56,502 nt of DNA, taken from positions 1-56,502 of the IMG/VR virus record IMGVR_UViG_3300038701_002364; one strand, given 5' to 3'. A model generated the notes under the pieces. It saw nothing but the letters and a program-made list of their open reading frames with translations, was not told the DNA's origin and did not search any database. Position 1 is the first letter of the stretch. Each line of letters begins with the position of its first letter. This document shows, in pieces, positions 2,195 to 28,452 of this stretch. The DNA comes from a virus. Made by a program: the position numbers and the translations under genes.

Positions 2195-2391
2195 AGCTTT
2201 TTCACCGCGCCTATGAAGGTCACAATGAAGATCAGGACGAAAACAAGCAGCCCGCAAATCCACAATGGTGAGAGTACCCACCACCAAGACCAATCGATGT
2301 TGTCTGTTAGCTTGAGGCCTATGAAGAGGATGGTCAGCAAGCCGACAAATCCGATGCCACTACTGCTGCTTGAACTGTTGTTTTTTGACAT
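2191..2391 (-). CDS. Small membrane protein, 66 aa
   Basis: A Ser-rich N-terminus (residues 3-11) is followed by two hydrophobic segments, about 13-27 and 36-62, with Trp at the boundary. It ends in KKL. Coupled to the next gene by ATGA. Likely a two-span inner-membrane protein of unknown role. Confidence 0.65.
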   Translation of the reverse strand: MSKNNSSSSSSGIGFVGLLTILFIGLKLTDNIDWSWWWVLSPLWICGLLVFVLIFIVTFIGAVKKL

Positions 2392-2415
2392 GTCGTTTTC
2401 CTTTTCTGGGATAGG

Positions 2416-2697
2416 TCAGCGGAAGTCTTCGGTCTCAAGAACCCGGAATTCGGGCTGATATCCGAGCGCGAATGTCATCGTTTCTTTGAAGTTTTCGATC
2501 CTGACTTGGGCCAGAGCGTCCACCACGCTGCTGAGGTCGGACATCAACTCCAGGCATTTGACATCGTCGCCTTTCCAGACGTGCGCAAAGACAGTGGCGT
2601 GGCGGCCGTAGTGGGTGATCTGGAACTCGAGGTCGACCTTCGGTGAATAGCGATCTTTGAGCAATTTCATCAGGCGCGGGTCGTGCTGGGTATTCAT
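2416..2697 (-). CDS. Hypothetical protein, 93 aa, first gene of a repressor-controlled operon
   Basis: Soluble alpha/beta-looking protein without a recognised domain. It is the promoter-proximal gene of the minus operon 2697-1004. The start is supported by AAAGGAC 8 nt upstream, and the leader has the GGCC box at 2718-2731 and operator palindromes at 2746-2758 and 2777-2789. This places the operon among genes silenced in lysogeny (inference). Confidence 0.65.
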   Translation of the reverse strand: MNTQHDPRLMKLLKDRYSPKVDLEFQITHYGRHATVFAHVWKGDDVKCLELMSDLSSVVDALAQVRIENFKETMTFALGYQPEFRVLETEDFR

Positions 2698-2717
2698 TCC
2701 AATGTCCTTTCATCTCA

Positions 2718-2731
2718 GGCCGTCCATGGCC
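2718..2731 (-). promoter_or_regulatory. GGCC leader box, copy 1
   Basis: On the plus strand GGCCGTCCATGGCC. It lies 21 nt upstream of the 2697 start and 15 nt from the operator at 2746. The GGCC ends can pair into a small hairpin, which would sit near the 5' end of the mRNA. The same box and spacing recur at 26188, 26760 and 29172. Confidence 0.6.
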
Positions 2732-2745
2732 TCATATCAACGATA

Positions 2746-2789
2746 TCGCTAATAGAGACTTTATGCAATAATGAAATCGCTAATAGCGA
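2746..2789. promoter_or_regulatory. Divergent promoter region with two operator palindromes
   Basis: TCGCTAATAGCGA at 2777-2789 is a perfect TCGC-N5-GCGA site; TCGCTAATAGAGA at 2746-2758 has one mismatch. On the minus strand TTGCAT, 17 nt (containing the 2746 site), then TATCGT forms a candidate promoter for the 2697 operon, so bound repressor would block it. Confidence 0.6.
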
Positions 2790-2856
2790 CCACGAGGCTC
2801 GAGCAAGAAACCGCCAGGCGGATGAGCCGAGCGAACAGAGAGAGAGTGTGAAACCG

Positions 2857-3438
2857 ATGTCAGACGTCGAAGTCGAAAAATTCAGGCGGGGCGGAATGGC
2901 CTTTGTCGCTCAGACCGGGGCGTTCTTGACGGCCATTGGCGTGTGCGCAGCCGCTGGCTGGTGGGCGTTGGAGCCGCGAGTCATGGCGAGCCTGAACAGC
3001 ATATTAGACAGCCGTGATGAGGCTGTAGTTGAGGCAATGATAGCTGAGATCAACGCGCGCTGGCCGATTGAGCAGCCAGTATTGATTGAGTTTGGCGGAA
3101 CGGGCGCTCAGTTGGTTCCCGGCGAAATCAAATCAGGTGGAGTTGTTGAGTTTCTGTTTTTCTTACGTCGGAACGATGACTGCAGAACCGATATTTTGGT
3201 TCAGTTCTGGAGCTACGAGAGCAAGCGCATCGAGCCTCGGTACAGTTATACGATCCCGACACAACAAGCTCCCGCCAGCTTCGACATGATTGAGTTTCTG
3301 ATCGAAGTCCAAATCCCCGACAGCATGCCGCCCGGGGTTTATTCCTACATGCCGATCATTTTGCCGGATCAAACAGAGTGTCCGCAGTTTGATCGCTTGC
3401 ATGTTCCCCCATCACCATTTTTCGAGGTCTTGCCATGA
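2857..3438 (+). CDS. Membrane-anchored phage protein, 193 aa
   Basis: The ATG at 2857 is the likely start (a GTG 9 nt earlier is possible); GAGAGAG lies upstream. One membrane segment at about residues 15-37 (AQTGAFLTAIGVCAAAGWW). The rest, about 150 residues, looks beta-rich and Pro-rich, perhaps an Ig-like periplasmic domain. Its stop overlaps the endolysin start, so it belongs to the lysis operon. Confidence 0.65.
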   Translation: MSDVEVEKFRRGGMAFVAQTGAFLTAIGVCAAAGWWALEPRVMASLNSILDSRDEAVVEAMIAEINARWPIEQPVLIEFGGTGAQLVPGEIKSGGVVEFLFFLRRNDDCRTDILVQFWSYESKRIEPRYSYTIPTQQAPASFDMIEFLIEVQIPDSMPPGVYSYMPIILPDQTECPQFDRLHVPPSPFFEVLP

Positions 3439-9940: not shown

Positions 9941-10584
9941 CACGATGCCTCCCGAATGAGCTTGAGGATGGTGTCTTTTTGGCGCTGGCGGGCGGCGTCA
10001 TAGGCGGCGGCACAGGCGGCAATATAGGCGGCATGGGCGGCATGGGCGGCACCGGCGGCAATGGCGGCATAGGCGGCGGCATCGGCGGCGGCATAGGCGG
10101 CACGGGCGGCGGCATCGGCGGCAATGGCGGCATAGGCGGCATAGGCGGCGGCATAGGCGGCATAGGCGTCCGGCCATTTCTCTCCAGCAGCAAGCAGGTC
10201 CATTCCGGCAATCACGTCGCTAATGGCGGTGCAGTCAGCACCCGGAATGTTGCGCAACTCACTGCCGAGAAACGCCCAGACAACCCGCGTCAGGTCTTTG
10301 CCATCGCAACCAACGGCATCACCAATCTGCGCAAAAAAGTCTTTAGCGTCATCTTCGGGGAGGCCTTCGAAAATGTTTTCGCAGACCTTCACCAGCATCA
10401 GCGGCAGGCCGTATTTTTCGCCCAAAATTCTTGCGTCTTCCGAGTGTGCAAGGCACCCGATAAAGCAGCCCCTGCCGCCGACGGCGTTTTTCGCGCCACG
10501 CCAGTAATCCCCCTGAACCACGGCATCTGCTGCGATGTGATGGGCTATCTCGGACTTGAGCAGATCGGTGTTTTTCGTGAGCAT
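9940..10584 (-). CDS. Phage protein with alanine-rich repeat tail, 214 aa
   Basis: The first about 135 residues are an ordinary folded domain with CFIGCLAHSED, a motif seen in a family of phage proteins that carry Ala-rich tails. Residues about 140-200 are a run of AYAA, AIAA, ADAA type units encoded by GGC-rich DNA at 9993-10165, predicted to form one long Ala-lined helix. Ends in RQRQKDTILKLIREAS. Copy number of the units probably varies by slippage. The opposite strand shows long but artificial Gly- and Pro-rich frames. Confidence 0.7.
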   Translation of the reverse strand: MLTKNTDLLKSEIAHHIAADAVVQGDYWRGAKNAVGGRGCFIGCLAHSEDARILGEKYGLPLMLVKVCENIFEGLPEDDAKDFFAQIGDAVGCDGKDLTRVVWAFLGSELRNIPGADCTAISDVIAGMDLLAAGEKWPDAYAAYAAAYAAYAAIAADAAARAAYAAADAAAYAAIAAGAAHAAHAAYIAACAAAYDAARQRQKDTILKLIREAS

Positions 10585-16397: not shown

Positions 16398-16702
16398 GGC
16401 ATCGCCAACTCTGCTTCGATCAGTGTCAGGGCTTCACCCGCTGGGATCTGCTTTTCCTTGTGCGCATCAATGATCTGGCTGATCCGGATCTTGAGCGCGT
16501 CCCTGACAAAATAGCAACGTGTATGGCCGGCGGCGGTTTTCTCAACAAAGCCTCTGTTGATCAGGCTGTTAAGCATCCGATGGATGTTTGAGCGCTGCTT
16601 CACCCCGACATGAGCCGCTATCTCCGTCATCGTCGGAGGCACGCCATTTGCCGCTGTATAGTCAGACATGAACTCGAGAACCTTCCGCTGGCCCTTGGTC
16701 AT
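16394..16702 (-). CDS. LexA-type winged-helix regulator, 102 aa
   Basis: Residues 4-62 match the LexA DNA-binding domain: TKGQRKVLEFMSDYTAANGVPPTMTEIAAHVGVKQRSNIHRMLNSL split by a turn, then the wing GFVEKTAAG. No S24 protease domain follows, so it is not cleaved by RecA. Probably a local regulator of early genes. Confidence 0.75.
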   Translation of the reverse strand: MTKGQRKVLEFMSDYTAANGVPPTMTEIAAHVGVKQRSNIHRMLNSLINRGFVEKTAAGHTRCYFVRDALKIRISQIIDAHKEKQIPAGEALTLIEAELAMP

Positions 16703-17592
16703 TCGCTTTGCTCGGGCATCCCCACCCGAAACCCTTCAAGCCAGTTTTCCAGAAACACCGGGTCGTCCTTTTTCGGGCACTGATCGATTGTGATCATGTC
16801 GCCAGCGCCAGCTTCAAGGCCCATCTGGTAAGCGGGGCTATCAACGTCGACGGCGATTGCGTCTACCGGATCTGCATCGGTGGCCCGAGATGTGGAAAAC
16901 GCCGACGTGTGTTGTATGGGTTTTTTCGCATTATTGGTGGCGTTTTCCCCGGCCTCTTGTGCCATCTTGGCGAAGCCGGATTCCTTTGGGGTCACATCGC
17001 GCATATTGCGTTGGTCAAGAACTTCCTCCCGGACTTCGATACCCATCAATGCGTCAGCAGCTCCGTCGCGGCATGCCCAAGAGCGCGCTCGCATGGCTAA
17101 CATTCGCTTTGGGTATTGTTGCCAAGGGCCTTTCTTGCTCATCAAGCCGGCGGTTTTCGCATCCTCCATACTGAATTCACGAACATATTTATGTCCGGTG
17201 TCTCCCCTCGTGAGTGTGGCAATAGCAGTTGTAACGCCGTCTCGATCTTCCACCACGTGATCAATGTGATGCCCGGACTTCTGCATCAAAGCAGGTAAAG
17301 CATCACCCCAAAGAGTGGCCCTGCCGTTGATCACAGCTATTGATTTCAGCGCCTGCATCGGCGTGAGCTTCACCTCCATCCCACTCAAGATTGCGGCCAT
17401 GATCATTTCAGCGTCACCCCTGAAATGCTCGGGTATGAGGTCGCCCGACTTCGAAAGCGCGGTCGCCAGCCGAAAAGCGTCATCAAGATTACTTGGGACG
17501 ATGGCGTCAATGCTCTCGCCGGTTTGGATGCGCGCTCTGATTTCAGATCTACGCTCTTCGCGCTCGGCTTCCGTCAGTTCAGTGGTGGTCAT
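16699..17592 (-). CDS. recT: RecT-family single-strand annealing protein, 297 aa
   Basis: Core (about residues 60-200) matches RecT: MQALKSIAVINGRATLWGDAL, then AIATLTRGDTGHKYVREFSMEDAKTAGL broken by variable turns, and YPKRMLAMRARSWACRDGAADALMG. The start at 17592 (MTTTEL) has GGAG 6 nt upstream; an ATG 12 nt earlier is also in frame. With the RecE-like exonuclease it forms a homologous recombination pair for genome replication and repair. The two genes are separated by an HNH endonuclease gene. Confidence 0.88.
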   Translation of the reverse strand: MTTTELTEAEREERRSEIRARIQTGESIDAIVPSNLDDAFRLATALSKSGDLIPEHFRGDAEMIMAAILSGMEVKLTPMQALKSIAVINGRATLWGDALPALMQKSGHHIDHVVEDRDGVTTAIATLTRGDTGHKYVREFSMEDAKTAGLMSKKGPWQQYPKRMLAMRARSWACRDGAADALMGIEVREEVLDQRNMRDVTPKESGFAKMAQEAGENATNNAKKPIQHTSAFSTSRATDADPVDAIAVDVDSPAYQMGLEAGAGDMITIDQCPKKDDPVFLENWLEGFRVGMPEQSE

Positions 17593-18166
17593 TTGACACT
17601 CCATTTGGAAAATTCAGTCGAGCGAACTCGCCAAAGTATTCTTGGGCGGCAACATCGTAAGCACGCGCTGCTGCAACTTCTGAGGAAAAAGAGCCTAATT
17701 GCTTCATGATGCCATCAACTTTAATGGTTGCAGAATATGCTCTTCTCCGAGCAGGTCGGTGTACTCCTTTGAATTTTGAGGTCTTGTGAAGTCCATCTCT
17801 GTTGGCTCTGTTTTGCGAAAACGTAGCTTCACGGAGATTACAGAGGCTGTTGTTAGAACAGTCACCGTCCTTATGATCGATTTCGAATTTCGGCCACCGA
17901 CCGTAAGTGATTGCAAAGCCGACTCTATGTGCCCTGAACATCACTCCAAATACAGATCCTGCCGAGTATCCGTGACTATCTTTTGCTGTGAAGGCCGGTT
18001 TCATTGCGTACCTAGAATTCCAGATTGCCATACTGTGAGATGCGTCACGAAATGGAGTTTTTCGGAACCATTTTACTTCCCTCGGCTTCCACATAAGGTC
18101 ACCGCTTTCGGAGTCGTATAAAAGTAGCTCTCGAAGTATTTGAGGAGTAATATCTGAACGGTTCAC
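17579..18166 (-). CDS. HNH endonuclease with AP2 domain, 195 aa
   Basis: GTG start overlaps the exonuclease stop (GTGA). HNH_3 core: FEIDHKDGDCSNNSLCNLRE with SQNRAN. C-terminal AP2 DNA-binding domain: FKGVHRPARRRAYSATIKVD and AARAYDVAAQEYFGEFARLN. This is the usual layout of free-standing phage homing endonucleases. The gene is AT-richer than its neighbours, a sign of recent entry, yet it is neatly coupled to the surrounding genes. Confidence 0.88.
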   Translation of the reverse strand: MNRSDITPQILRELLLYDSESGDLMWKPREVKWFRKTPFRDASHSMAIWNSRYAMKPAFTAKDSHGYSAGSVFGVMFRAHRVGFAITYGRWPKFEIDHKDGDCSNNSLCNLREATFSQNRANRDGLHKTSKFKGVHRPARRRAYSATIKVDGIMKQLGSFSSEVAAARAYDVAAQEYFGEFARLNFPNGVSNDHH

Positions 18167-19128
18167 AAACCCATTTCCTCGGCGTAATTTGCCACAGCCC
18201 ATTCTGGACGCACGAAGTCACCGACATCGACACCCGGCCCGGGCCAGTTCTTTTCGTTGAAGCATTTGCGAAATTCGCGCCGTTGCCTTTGGCATTCGAA
18301 TGCGCCGATCCGAAGATCCTGATCACTGAGGCCACGCGCGATCACGCTGAACGGTGGCTTGTCCATCTGGAAGATCAGTCCAGCGGTTTCGCACCACTGA
18401 CCCGTGAGGCGTTCAAAAGCCTCGTTGGCCAAGCCCATTTGGATGTCGTAGCGATAATTCTGGATCTTGCGATCCACCAACCACCAGTTCATTGGGGCGC
18501 CTTGCGTGGACACCTTTTTGTAATCTGAAAGCATGCCGGAAAAGCTGGTCACGTCGGGGCGTGAAAGCACCCACAAACCCGTGTCCTCGTCGAACCATGC
18601 CATCGTGATTTCTGGGATGCCTTCGAGACAAGCACGGGCAATTGGGTCTTGCCCAACAACCTTGCCCATCGCGCAGAGCATTTCCCATTCGTCCTCGCTG
18701 AGTTGCATGCGGGGATCCGCATCAACCTTGCGCCAGAAGTTGATCGACTTTAGGCCAGCCTCGGAAGGTGACCCTTCGTTGTAGCGGCGGATCTGTGCGG
18801 CGGTTGGCTTGTTCGGCTTGTCTTTGGGAAGGACAAACGCCGCTTCCTCAAGTCCTTCCGGCCCGTTTTCCACGTAAGCTGCCATCGCCCGACCAAGCCG
18901 GAGCGCGTCGGTTTCCTTGCGCTCATAGCGTTTTTCGTTCAGCCGGGAGAATGCCCAGACATACTCTGGCCCGTGCAGCAGCATGTCGCGCAGCGTCGAT
19001 GATGTGACGCTGATCCCGTCGCAGGGTTGCGAGTGATGCCGATCAAGTGAGATCTCGTAGAACCCTGGCTCTGTGATCAGTTCGTCCGGGCCAAGTGTGC
19101 GCACCTGTGGCGTCCCAATGTCTTTCAT
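18163..19128 (-). CDS. RecE-like exonuclease (PD-(D/E)XK), 321 aa
   Basis: Resembles the DUF3799/RecE C-terminal nuclease: SVTSSTLRDMLLHGPEYVWA at the front, LRLGRAMAAYVENG, then the catalytic strand SRPDVTSFSGMLSDYKKVST with Asp and D-x-K. Followed by YRYDIQMGLANEAFERLTGQ as in the family. Processes dsDNA ends to give the single strands that RecT anneals. First gene of the long minus early operon, directly behind operator sites. Confidence 0.85.
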   Translation of the reverse strand: MKDIGTPQVRTLGPDELITEPGFYEISLDRHHSQPCDGISVTSSTLRDMLLHGPEYVWAFSRLNEKRYERKETDALRLGRAMAAYVENGPEGLEEAAFVLPKDKPNKPTAAQIRRYNEGSPSEAGLKSINFWRKVDADPRMQLSEDEWEMLCAMGKVVGQDPIARACLEGIPEITMAWFDEDTGLWVLSRPDVTSFSGMLSDYKKVSTQGAPMNWWLVDRKIQNYRYDIQMGLANEAFERLTGQWCETAGLIFQMDKPPFSVIARGLSDQDLRIGAFECQRQRREFRKCFNEKNWPGPGVDVGDFVRPEWAVANYAEEMGL

Positions 19129-22377: not shown

Positions 22378-23495
22378 GTGGATGGCTCCCCCTGTCGCGA
22401 GCGATATTCAGCGACCCTCGATATGTCGAGAAAACCTTCACCAAGTTTCAGGCAATCGTCTGGCTGGCGCAGGATGCGACCACGCAAGACGGACGGACAT
22501 TCACGACCAAGCACGGGTCTGTCGTGACGCTCAAGCGGGGTCAGGTATCGCATTCTCTGCGGTATCTCGAGACCAAATTCGGGTGGTCAAAATCGAAGGT
22601 TCACCGGTTCCTAAAGGCCCTTGAGGCCGATGGCGTCATCGAGATCACCCGCCTCAAGGTGGGACAGCTCGGCGAAAAGGTGGGACAGCTTTGTGGGACA
22701 GCTTCGGGCGAAAAAGTGGGACAGCTTGCGGGACAGCCTAAAGCACAAGAGGTTTCCGTCATAACTATTTGCAATTACGACGAATTATTCGGCGTTGGTG
22801 CTGTCCCAAAATCAGAAGGTGGGACAGCTTCCGGGACAGCTTCACTCGAAAATGTGGGACAGGTTTGTGGGACAAATCCTAATAAAGATATAATACCTAA
22901 AAATAAAAAAGATCCTTCGGATCTAAAAAAGGATTTTGACCAGAATTCAGTGGATGAACCGCCGGAAGGGTGGGACAGCTTTGACGACGAAACTCCGGTC
23001 AATCAGGAAGCTCTGAACGTTCTCGGCGATATGTTCGGATCGGTGCCCAAGACGCCGTTCGACAAACTTGTCGACATCGTTGGCCAAGCGCTAGCGGGAG
23101 ACTTCCTCGAGCATCGACGGCAACGCAAAAAGCCGATGACGGACATCGCCATCGACCGGCTGGCCAAGAAGCTCTCAAACGCTGAGATATTCCCGGATCC
23201 TGCCGGGTCGCTCGACCTGGCAATCGAACGGGGTTGGTTGAACCCCGTGGCCCCGAAAGATCTCGGGGGAGGTCACGCACCACCACCGGCACGCCACGAG
23301 ATCACGCCGGAGCGGCAAGCCCAGCAAAGGCGGATGATCAATCTGGAAGCCGAGCGACGTAGGCGGGCGGAAGAACAGGCCGAGCAAGACCGTCAAGAGA
23401 TGGAAGAAATTCGTAAATCTGCGACTGGTTCCAGCCAGGAAGTAAAATCGCTACTGGCCGAACTGCGTCGATCACAAGCCGCAAAGAGGATCTAA
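22374..23495 (+). CDS. Replication initiator-like protein containing the origin, 373 aa
   Basis: Residues 1-90 form a winged-helix domain of the phage replication-protein type (WLPLSRAIFSDPRYVEKTFT, then FGWSKSKVHRFLKALEADG). Residues about 95-165 are low-complexity (VGQL, GTAS) because the DNA there consists of iterons. Residues 200-280 look folded and the C-terminus (about 300-373) is a charged helix. As in lambda O, the gene probably carries its own origin. ATGA overlap with dnaB. Confidence 0.75.
   Translation: MSGWLPLSRAIFSDPRYVEKTFTKFQAIVWLAQDATTQDGRTFTTKHGSVVTLKRGQVSHSLRYLETKFGWSKSKVHRFLKALEADGVIEITRLKVGQLGEKVGQLCGTASGEKVGQLAGQPKAQEVSVITICNYDELFGVGAVPKSEGGTASGTASLENVGQVCGTNPNKDIIPKNKKDPSDLKKDFDQNSVDEPPEGWDSFDDETPVNQEALNVLGDMFGSVPKTPFDKLVDIVGQALAGDFLEHRRQRKKPMTDIAIDRLAKKLSNAEIFPDPAGSLDLAIERGWLNPVAPKDLGGGHAPPPARHEITPERQAQQRRMINLEAERRRRAEEQAEQDRQEMEEIRKSATGSSQEVKSLLAELRRSQAAKRI
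22659..22978 (+). other. Putative replication origin: iterons plus AT-rich region
   Basis: Nine GGGACAG copies, mostly in the longer form GTGGGACAGCTT (starts 22661, 22682, 22695, 22718, 22730, 22821, 22833, 22856, 22972), one GGGACAA (22869) and one inverted CTGTCCC (22801). A strongly AT-rich stretch at 22874-22936 with a small hairpin (AGATCC/GGATCT) lies within the cluster. This is the iteron-plus-unwinding-element pattern of lambdoid origins. Confidence 0.75.
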
Positions 23496-25497: not shown

Positions 25498-25667
25498 TCT
25501 TCTTTTTCCCTTACGCAAGCACCCACTGCCAAGTCGAAGGTTGGCCACTGGCCGTCAATCCAGACTTGATGAACGGAAGCGACAAAGACTTCATCGACTG
25601 GGTAGATCCTTGACTCTTCTTTTTCCCAACATCTACGCATTTCGTCCCAAACCCAGCCGACTGTCAT
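25494..25667 (-). CDS. Small Trp-rich protein, 57 aa
   Basis: ATGA overlaps at both ends. MTVGWVWDEMRRCWEKEESR, then a segment with VWIDGQW; five Trp in 57 residues. No known family. Confidence 0.5.
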   Translation of the reverse strand: MTVGWVWDEMRRCWEKEESRIYPVDEVFVASVHQVWIDGQWPTFDLAVGACVREKEE

Positions 25668-26167
25668 CGTAAGAATCCCTTCACTCGCATTGAGACAACT
25701 TGGTCACCCGCCACAATGACGTGGTCATGCAGCGTGATGGACAGAGCCTCGCATGCTGTTTGAATTTTCGCCGTCATTGAAACATCGCAGCTGCTTGGGG
25801 TGGGGTCACCAGATGGGTGATTATGCGCAAGGATCAAAGCCGTCGCGTTTAGTTCCAACGCTTTGGCCACAATCTCTCGAGCATAAACGCTGACGTGGTC
25901 CACAGTTCCGCGCGCCACTTCCAAATCGGAGATCAGCCTATTCCGCTTATCCAAGAAGATCACACGGAAGCTCTCCCTTGTCAGTCCAGACATCGTGACC
26001 GCCAAATAGGCATGTAAAGACGTGGACGATGAAAGGATTGGGCCTTTGGCGACCATGGTCTTAAGGATCGCGCGAGCGTCAGCCAAGCAAGCCAGATCAG
26101 CCTCCGTCAAGTGCGGTTTGAAGTCAAAGTCGTTGAGGTCTTTGAATGTTGGCATCTGGTCAAACAC
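25664..26167 (-). CDS. RadC-family JAB/MPN protein, 167 aa
   Basis: Contains the JAMM motif ILAHNHPSGDPTPSSCD with an upstream acidic residue, plus the RadC flank RESFRVIFLDKRNRLISDLE. The N-terminal helix-hairpin-helix of chromosomal RadC is missing, as usual in phage copies. The GTG start at 26167 follows AGGACC; an ATG 12 nt inside is the alternative. Role unclear; phage and plasmid copies may counter host defence or process DNA ends. Confidence 0.82.
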   Translation of the reverse strand: MFDQMPTFKDLNDFDFKPHLTEADLACLADARAILKTMVAKGPILSSSTSLHAYLAVTMSGLTRESFRVIFLDKRNRLISDLEVARGTVDHVSVYAREIVAKALELNATALILAHNHPSGDPTPSSCDVSMTAKIQTACEALSITLHDHVIVAGDQVVSMRVKGFLR

Positions 26168-26838: not shown

Positions 26839-28452
26839 TCATATTCCCCATTCAAACAGATCGCCGGCCATCGGCTTGGCCAAGTCGCGGGTCATGTAGG
26901 CGCGGACAAAGCCCGTCGCTTGCGCAAGGTCGAGGCCGTTTCCGTAGGCGCGCAGGCGTCCCAGACGGCTGGGAGCCGTTGAAGCCAACGGGAAAGTGCT
27001 GGGTTCAACTGGCCGCCAGACTCCATCCCGGCACCAGAGCCAGTCAGCATCGCGCCAGTAGCCGTCAATCGGATCGGCGATGACATCTGCGAACAGATCG
27101 CTTGTGCTGATTGCAGCGTCGGGCGCTGCCGTGTCCCGCCGTGGCCCGTGCCTCTGTTCTGGCTCATGTTCGGGGCTTCGGTTGCCATCGGCGTTGGCCA
27201 GCCGGTCAGTTGTGACGCTGACCCGATCGTCAGGCCCGCGCCATTGCTGTTGCCGTGTTTGTGTTTCAGTTTTTCCCGGCGCGCTTGCGTTGTCTCCGCG
27301 CTGGACGTCACGTTGAATGCTCCCGCGTCCGGTGTCGGCCAGCCGCTCACTGCGTCCACCACTTTGCGGCTGTAATCCGAGTTCCCCGCCGCGTTGTTGC
27401 CGTTCTGCGCCGGTGTCCCGGCCATCGGTGTCGGCCAGCCGGTCAGCTGTGCGTTTGTCACAAGACTCGGGCCGCCCGCGCCCCTTGTCTTTGATGTGTA
27501 GTCCGCGCCCGCTGTCGCTTCCGCTGTTTTCGGCGTCGGCCAGCCGGTCATGTGCGCAGCCTGTATCAGATCCTGTGGCTGACCCTTGCGTGCGATTTCC
27601 CTCACCGATCCGGCGTGCGTCCTGACGTTCTTTTCCGCGTCCCCCGCCCGCGCTGTCGGCCAGCCCGCCATAGCAGCATCTGCATTCAGGTCCGCACACC
27701 CGTGTTTTGTCCCGTGCTTGGCCTTCTGACCTTTTCCCCTCGGGGACGTATCGTGCGCCATGGGGGTTGTCCAACCCGCAAGCTGCGCTTGCCTCGGCAA
27801 TTGATCGGTGCGGTCGCGCGTCGAGCCATCCGGGTTCTGACCTGTCAGCGACATGCCCGCAGTGTCTTTCCAGTCCCGCGCCGAGGCTGTTGACCAGCCC
27901 GCCATATCGCCGGGCAGTGTCTGCCCACGCCTCACGTTTGGCAGATTTGTTATCCTCGGCCGCGAAATAGAGCCTTTGCCGGATGTGGAATGACCGGAAG
28001 CCCGCAGCGCAGGTATCTGCAAGCCCGAGGGCGTAGTCCGTCGCTTCCAAGTCAGACGATACAAGGTCGGCCCAGACCAGTCCGTCAGCGCTTGCAACCT
28101 GCTCTCCAAAGACAGTTTCAGGGCGACACTGTTCGATGAGCCAGTGCCAGTGGGGCCACAAGTGCCGCTCATCATCAAACCCAGCGCTTTGGCCTGCCGC
28201 GCTGAAAGGTTGACAGGGACATGACCCGGTCCAGACCGGCCTGTCATCAGGCCATCCAGCCGCGCGCAAAGCCGCCGACCAAATCCCGATACCGGCAAAA
28301 AAGTGGCATTGTGTAAAGCCGTCGAGGTCTGCGGGCGCCACGTCTGAAATCGAGCGTTCATCAACAATGCCGGGGGCGATGGCACCGCAGGCAATGAGGT
28401 TTCGCAGCCATTCGGCAGCATAGGGATCATATTCATTGTAATACGCTTTCAT
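26839..28452 (-). CDS. C5-cytosine DNA methyltransferase, 537 aa
   Basis: Motif [20 protein letters not shown], motif [14 protein letters not shown] with catalytic Cys, motif VI FGEQV, motif VIII-like HIRQRLYF, and the family's C-terminal block FWRDADW-like ([31 protein letters not shown], the last being motif X). Residues about 170-430 are a low-complexity insertion with repeated RLADA/RLADT units. Methylates cytosine in phage DNA. The same DNA is open in a second frame for almost its full length. Confidence 0.85.
26892..28436 (-). CDS. Second long frame inside the methylase gene, 514 codons
   Basis: Starts 16 nt inside the methylase gene in another frame and stays open to 26892. Its translation has GWPTP repeats (LTGWPTPMA and variants, at least six), and blocks such as [16 protein letters not shown]-like and [10 protein letters not shown]...[10 protein letters not shown] that I recognise from phage and prophage proteins elsewhere. 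The repeated DNA unit reads DRLADA in the methylase frame and TGWPTP here. Either a genuine overlapping gene or a long-lived shadow of repeat DNA. Confidence 0.45.

Follow-up and report, generated by a model that had tools for sequence, protein, structure and literature searches.

Multispecific C5-methyltransferases of Bacillus phages (the SPbeta, phi3T and SPR group) are orphan enzymes with tandem short recognition units between motifs VIII and IX. M.EcoHK31I belongs to a restriction-modification (R-M) system, and its small chain is said, in work of Lee, Kam and Shaw from 1995, to be encoded in an alternative frame inside the gene of the large chain. M.EcoHK31I (YGGCCR) is a natural two-polypeptide C5-methyltransferase: the large chain holds motifs I-VIII and X, the small chain holds motif IX alone, and the published assignment has a predicted target-recognition domain (TRD) in the large chain (PMC3404938). 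The split enzyme M.AquI (CYCGRG) is divided elsewhere, with motifs I-VIII and part of the variable region in the alpha chain and the rest, together with motifs IX-X, in the beta chain (PMC3404938). An out-of-frame protein, the ShiLan domain, is hidden in an actinophage methylase gene (PMC11855218).

The locus described here lies in a 56,502-nt stretch of virus DNA (IMG/VR record IMGVR_UViG_3300038701_002364, positions 1-56,502), which was analyzed as a whole and is called the window. As judged from sequence, two nested frames very probably specify the two chains of a single C5-methyltransferase here, with the beta chain (GW) as the recognition half. By motif layout, the window resembles M.EcoHK31I, with motifs I-VIII and X in the large chain (alpha, or MT) and motif IX in the second; as in the arrangement reported for that enzyme, the second chain lies in the other frame inside the first gene, here under selection of its own. 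Unlike in M.EcoHK31I, tandem TRD-like modules, variable in number, are found in the small nested chain, and the gene, as far as its neighbors show, is an orphan phage gene with a wide spread. Unlike in M.AquI, whose layout is shared by the actinophage-type loci (L225, L228-L255), beta is wholly nested and motif X is kept in alpha. The SPbeta/phi3T/SPR enzymes share with the window the tandem units of ~40 residues between motifs VIII and IX, by arrangement and not by module sequence, yet they are single chains in one frame. The ShiLan domain, unlike what is proposed for GW, is no part of the enzyme but an HNH homing endonuclease carried on a mobile insertion (PMC11855218). A literature search, with most subscription journals outside it, found no paper on this phage family; the recognition array in a nested frame, the shuffling of modules and the breadth of the family appear to be new relative to the known systems.

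A methylase gene and a 514-codon second frame overlapping it on one strand had been reported in an earlier note, and both open reading frames are present (Table 1), sharing ~1.4 kb of the minus strand. The repeat unit TGACCGGCTGGCCGACGCC occurs in 4 copies in the gene (0-2 mismatches; chance 0.01) and, as the note had read it (DRLADA in one frame, TGWPTP in the other), translates as RLADA, RLADT or RLANA in MT and as GWPTP in GW. Three further, degenerate copies of the module read GWSTA, GWTTP and GWPTA, which gives the GW of the window seven modules. GW extends beyond the repeats on both sides, starting well before them (MT codon ~69-82) and ending after them. Elsewhere in the window, a GGCGGCATA-type tandem repeat array is found at 9994-10168 and a short tandem repeat, GTGGGACAGCTT..., of about 2 copies of 36 bases at 22659-22737. 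A RadC/JAB-domain gene (PF04002, 3e-41) is located close downstream of the methylase, at 25664-26167 (-). No restriction endonuclease was recognized among ten neighbors tested with Pfam, and the methylase gene is an orphan as far as the neighbors show.

Table 1. Features of the nested methyltransferase locus (window coordinates)
Feature	Position	Strand	Basis
MT (alpha frame), C5-cytosine methyltransferase, 537 aa	26839..28452	-	ORF; PF00145; phrog_363; AF2 vs M.HhaI
GW (beta frame), full open frame, 514 codons, +1 relative to MT	26892..28436	-	ORF
GW, likely translated part, 451 aa from ATG 28247	26892..28247	-	best ribosome-binding match in frame; predicted start
Motif IV of MT, catalytic	28192..28227	-	sequence; conserved in relatives
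GW N-terminal domain (NLSARQAK...LTWK...LRAS), overlapping MT motifs IV-VIII	27980..28211	-	AF2; identity above MT-forced level
Motif VIII of MT	27958..27987	-	sequence; aligned to HhaI 71-176 block
Seven tandem GW[P/T/S]T[P/A] modules (MT RLADA linker region), proposed swappable target-recognition modules	27030..27899	-	last boundary approximate
Motif IX of the enzyme, in GW frame	26958..27011	-	sequence; hhalign
Motif X of MT	26932..26961	-	sequence; nearly invariant columns

In MT, a linker of ~330 residues connects motifs I-VIII to motif X; the frame is matched by PF00145 (3e-7), phrog_363 (2e-66) and the M.HhaI profile (6e-16). It has motif I and the motif IV PCQ with the catalytic cysteine, PCQP being invariant in relatives, and its motif VI is EQV (GEQVAS), not ENV, with E and Q invariant in the subfamily. 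From motif VIII to motif X, MT is an unconserved linker, and neither a TRD nor motif IX is found in this chain; single-chain C5-methylases hold both between VIII and X, and known split members are without them in that chain. RLADA thus occupies the usual place of the methylase TRD and is no functional insertion of its own. The AlphaFold2 (AF2) model of MT has a confident fold for residues 1-190 and a C-terminal helix; its best PDB matches, M.HhaI structures (Z 14.2, 172 aligned residues, rmsd 2.9), are in keeping with agreement over the large domain only. The N-terminus of MT looks permuted (window 28267-28443, MT residues 4-62): a motif II/III-like stretch, ...VDERSISDV, precedes motif I (FFAGIGIW), the stretch usual between motifs I and IV is missing from the subfamily, and residue 1 of the model aligns with HhaI residue 34. 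The sole profile match of this N-terminus, to motif II of canonical enzymes, is weak (P 0.014).

Sequence searches of Pfam, NCBIfam and the PDB with GW gave no match, and two PHROGs did match it (phrog_31772, 1e-46; phrog_1008, 1e-30); PHROGs lists beta as 'DNA methyltransferase' families. The chain ends in QLNPA.SRWL..LP..WD, a motif IX pattern; motif X, in the MT frame, follows after 22 codons. When GW is modeled alone by AF2, only the N-domain is confident (pLDDT about 60-88, helix 26-45, hairpin 51-73) and the modules are not folded (mean pLDDT 50); comparison of this model with the PDB gave no methylase, at Z about 3 or less. Across 184 genes, 561 modules were counted, 1-7 per gene with a median of 38 residues, placed between motifs VIII and IX. 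They form 14 clusters present in at least 5 genes each and found at varying ordinal positions, the linkage clustering being loose for the two largest. The same types are thus shared at different positions, as would be expected if modules are exchanged between phages. Genes for a RecT-like annealing protein and an exonuclease VIII-like protein lie at window 16699-19128 (-) and may offer a possible route for such exchange.

GW without a Pfam domain could be a genuine overlapping gene whose function is unrelated to the methylase, e.g., an anti-restriction or regulatory protein. Such a role is unlikely: the motif IX of GW stands colinear before motif X, its [WL]PTP array has an in-frame counterpart in single-chain enzymes, set between VIII and IX, and MT is without these parts, while loci with MT and no such parts were next to absent from the sets surveyed. 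The single-chain case is that of the Mycobacterium prophage prophiGD91-2 and viral relatives (L193, L203-L215), assigned, like other loci, by a classification that rests in part on regular expressions. Their methylase shares with the window motifs I-VIII, [WL]PTP modules, motif IX (L.P.F.EWMMGWP) and motif X, but has them all in a single frame and a single chain, in the order I-VIII, LPTPSVADG.., LPTPSAADG.., LPTPRRSDG.., LAPAFSEWMMGWPAGWV and then GNGV. Alignment of GW with single-chain phage methyltransferases by hhalign places motif IX on motif IX (P=5e-6).

Actinophage-type loci are arranged differently: alpha (motifs I-VIII) ends just after motif VIII, and beta is a separate ORF in +1 phase, overlapping alpha by ~180 nt and comprising the N-domain, LPTP modules and motifs IX and X. 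By hhalign, GW matches this beta with 96.4% and E 1e-9, in an alignment whose 108 columns span N-domain and modules. The N-domain share of the score may be partly a shadow of the homologous MT motifs; the module share has no conserved MT sequence overlapping it. These two-ORF loci are possible intermediates between the single-chain and nested forms. A profile of the GW N-domain built from nested loci also matches the +1 frame of single-chain enzymes, so N-domain similarity in distant families may in part be an MT shadow; the profile was left out as evidence there, and the codon-level tests carry the point.

Synonymous shuffling of the MT codons of the window gene introduces a mean of 2.8 stops into the GW frame, and 0.7% of the shuffled genes keep it stop-free. 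Summed across 81 non-redundant relatives, which are not independent, log10 P(no GW stop) is -145; the +2 frame has 12 stops per gene. A codon alignment of 83 genes gave the entropy at fourfold sites of MT, which is 1.68 bit over the free codons 1-81 and 0.93 bit over codons 82-172. Constraint on third positions starts at codon 82 (about 28207-28209 of the window), where GW reads 'LSARQAK', is strongest at codons 455-506 (lowest entropy, 0.49 bit) and relaxes past codon 507 (back up to 1.42); the contrast has a Mann-Whitney p of 4e-16 on columns. Ahead of the overlap, the three MT codon positions take 0.18/0.15/0.67 of the substitutions; the shares are 0.34/0.24/0.42 for the first core overlap, 0.39/0.22/0.40 for the second and 0.47/0.22/0.31 for the modules.

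The identity that one frame forces on the other was obtained by redrawing synonymous codons with either MT or GW fixed; the loci share ancestry, so the simulated z values are inflated and are not probabilities. GW identity in the two cores is 0.53 and 0.70, vs 0.29 and 0.33 if MT alone were kept, and before the overlap the same frame has 0.37 vs 0.34. MT identity in the cores is 0.62 and 0.71, vs 0.22 and 0.34 if GW alone were kept. Among 1,020 homologous module pairs, GW identity is 0.70 and MT identity 0.36 (0.31 expected from GW alone), and MT has no stops in the modules, with 1.36 expected per module. By the codon-level tests together, strong purifying selection acts on both frames over MT codons 82-165 and 458-506, so that the cores conserve both proteins; in the modules GW is the conserved protein and MT an open linker kept stop-free. 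In distant sets of few sequences, the drop in fourfold entropy is less marked, from 1.58 to 1.00 for the alpha set and from 1.36 to 1.13 for the in-frame control, and the claim of strong dual selection is therefore restricted to the subfamily of the window.

These results divide what the earlier note had left as alternatives, that both proteins are made or that one is a conserved shadow: dual coding is backed by selection in the two cores, and within the repeats it is RLADA that is the shadow. The RLADA insertion, which the note had ranked beside GWPTP as a recurring protein type, loses that standing, as GWPTP is conserved in the repeats and RLADA is only kept stop-free. The pattern that the note had named as contrary, selection in one frame with frequent stops in the other, was looked for in the relatives and did not appear. 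The resemblance of the second frame to the missing half of the same enzyme, recognition modules and motif IX together, goes beyond the note.

An untranslated GW, i.e., a long open frame left behind by GC-rich MT codon use, would have precedents, as spurious long frames arise in high-GC genomes and some conservation carries over to the out-of-frame image of any conserved protein. It is nevertheless very improbable here: synonymous MT constraint starts and stops with GW, GW identity is roughly double what MT forces, the modules conserve GW and not MT, and nested frames hold at GC 0.33-0.45. A GC-rich artefact was rejected on the codon-level tests and the low-GC nested loci. Equally hard to credit is the converse, in which only GW matters and MT past motif VIII is a relic with an unused motif X. 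MT is near shadow level in the modules, as a relic would be, but it is open through all of them in spite of the stops expected, and around motif X it is conserved beyond what GW would impose (0.71 vs 0.34); in the actinophage-type loci, MT stops after VIII, yet motif X is retained in beta.

With constraint present from MT codon 82 on, entry into GW has to lie ahead of this codon. An upstream in-frame ATG is present in 179 of 184 loci. No single ATG is common to all; the commonest, at MT codon 37 (121/184), stands out within the free region (GAT 65/78) and has a ribosome-site score above background. The best candidate in the window is the ATG at 28247 (MT codon 69), behind GGATGG. EBPR siphovirus 2 (L183) has an intein-like insert of 376 codons (2238-3365; C...HN|C) that splits the catalytic PCQ motif just before codon 82; many stops interrupt the GW frame within the insert until close to the insert's end, where GW is open again and an ATG is found, which makes the upstream GW frame dispensable. 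The upstream ATGs and this layout favor translation of GW by internal initiation. A programmed +1 frameshift near MT codon 81, yielding an MT(1-81)-GW fusion and no separate protein, would account for the abrupt onset of constraint at codon 82 and for the absence of a universal start codon. Such a fusion would hold just a fragment of the catalytic fold, however, and with an upstream ATG in nearly all loci and one that stands out at codon 37 it is improbable; a shift past motif VIII is excluded, as GW is constrained from codon 82 on. Internal initiation thus stays the favored route to GW.

A total of 184 related loci from phages and prophages (phage records included) hold both frames intact, with neither chain split between frames. 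Among viral loci, 80 were fetched by GW and 18 by MT; both frames are open at full length almost without exception in these, and intact in 18/18 of those fetched by MT alone. Four domain profiles (MT N-part, MT C-part, GW N-domain and GW C-part) were all matched in 177 of 179 viral and bacterial loci; 3 of the 177 are broken by an indel or stop. Two frameshift-disrupted loci (L073 and L139), in which both frames shift together, look like cases of indel or assembly error. No standalone GW gene without a methylase frame was found in the first 179 loci. Searching a phage collection by tblastn gave 343 records that match MT and 200 that match GW, and several distant phages do carry GW by profile.

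The pair is present in phages N15, epsilon15, BcepC6B, K1H and PMG1. Automatic pipelines call the alpha frame only, and some records call beta too or instead: the methylase alone is annotated in N15, BcepC6B and epsilon15, a beta CDS is annotated in PMG1, and K1H has both, beta as a 'putative Mte8-like protein'. A nested +1 beta with modules and motif IX was read directly in Paenibacillus, Lacticaseibacillus, Porphyromonas and marine (deep-sea) phages, at a locus GC of 0.33-0.49 for the distant nested loci (Paenibacillus phage 0.44, marine phage 0.33). In a sample of 80 loci (L342-L421) fetched with the alpha frame of L201 alone, a nested +1 frame bearing N-domain and motif IX occurs in 67, and in 3 more both are present but the overlap is partial. 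The nested pair thus appears to be spread over phages of Proteobacteria, Firmicutes and Bacteroidetes and marine phages, at GC down to 0.33. This is probably a very widespread and ancient nested phage gene pair, in which a swappable module array and motif IX occupy the +1 frame of the catalytic half and modules can be swapped freely because alpha reads them as no more than an open linker.

The two chains would divide the enzyme as follows. Frame 0 would give the catalytic large domain, i.e., the SAM-binding and catalytic motifs I-VIII, the non-conserved linker and motif X; the +1 frame would give the small domain, composed of an N-terminal docking segment, 1-7 recognition modules of ~38 residues and motif IX. 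Alpha and beta are predicted to assemble into one enzyme, in which beta would supply recognition of the DNA sequence. Each module, by its position, is a candidate target-recognition unit, and tandem modules may confer several target specificities. The purpose would presumably be to shield phage DNA from restriction.

Bacteria and their phages have few long same-strand gene overlaps in which both frames are demonstrably selected; this one exceeds 1 kb and is repeated in hundreds of loci across several phyla. If true, the reading would call for a changed annotation of methylases in many phages and prophages. The arrangement suggests that a phage could re-programme its methylation specificity by swapping short cassettes.
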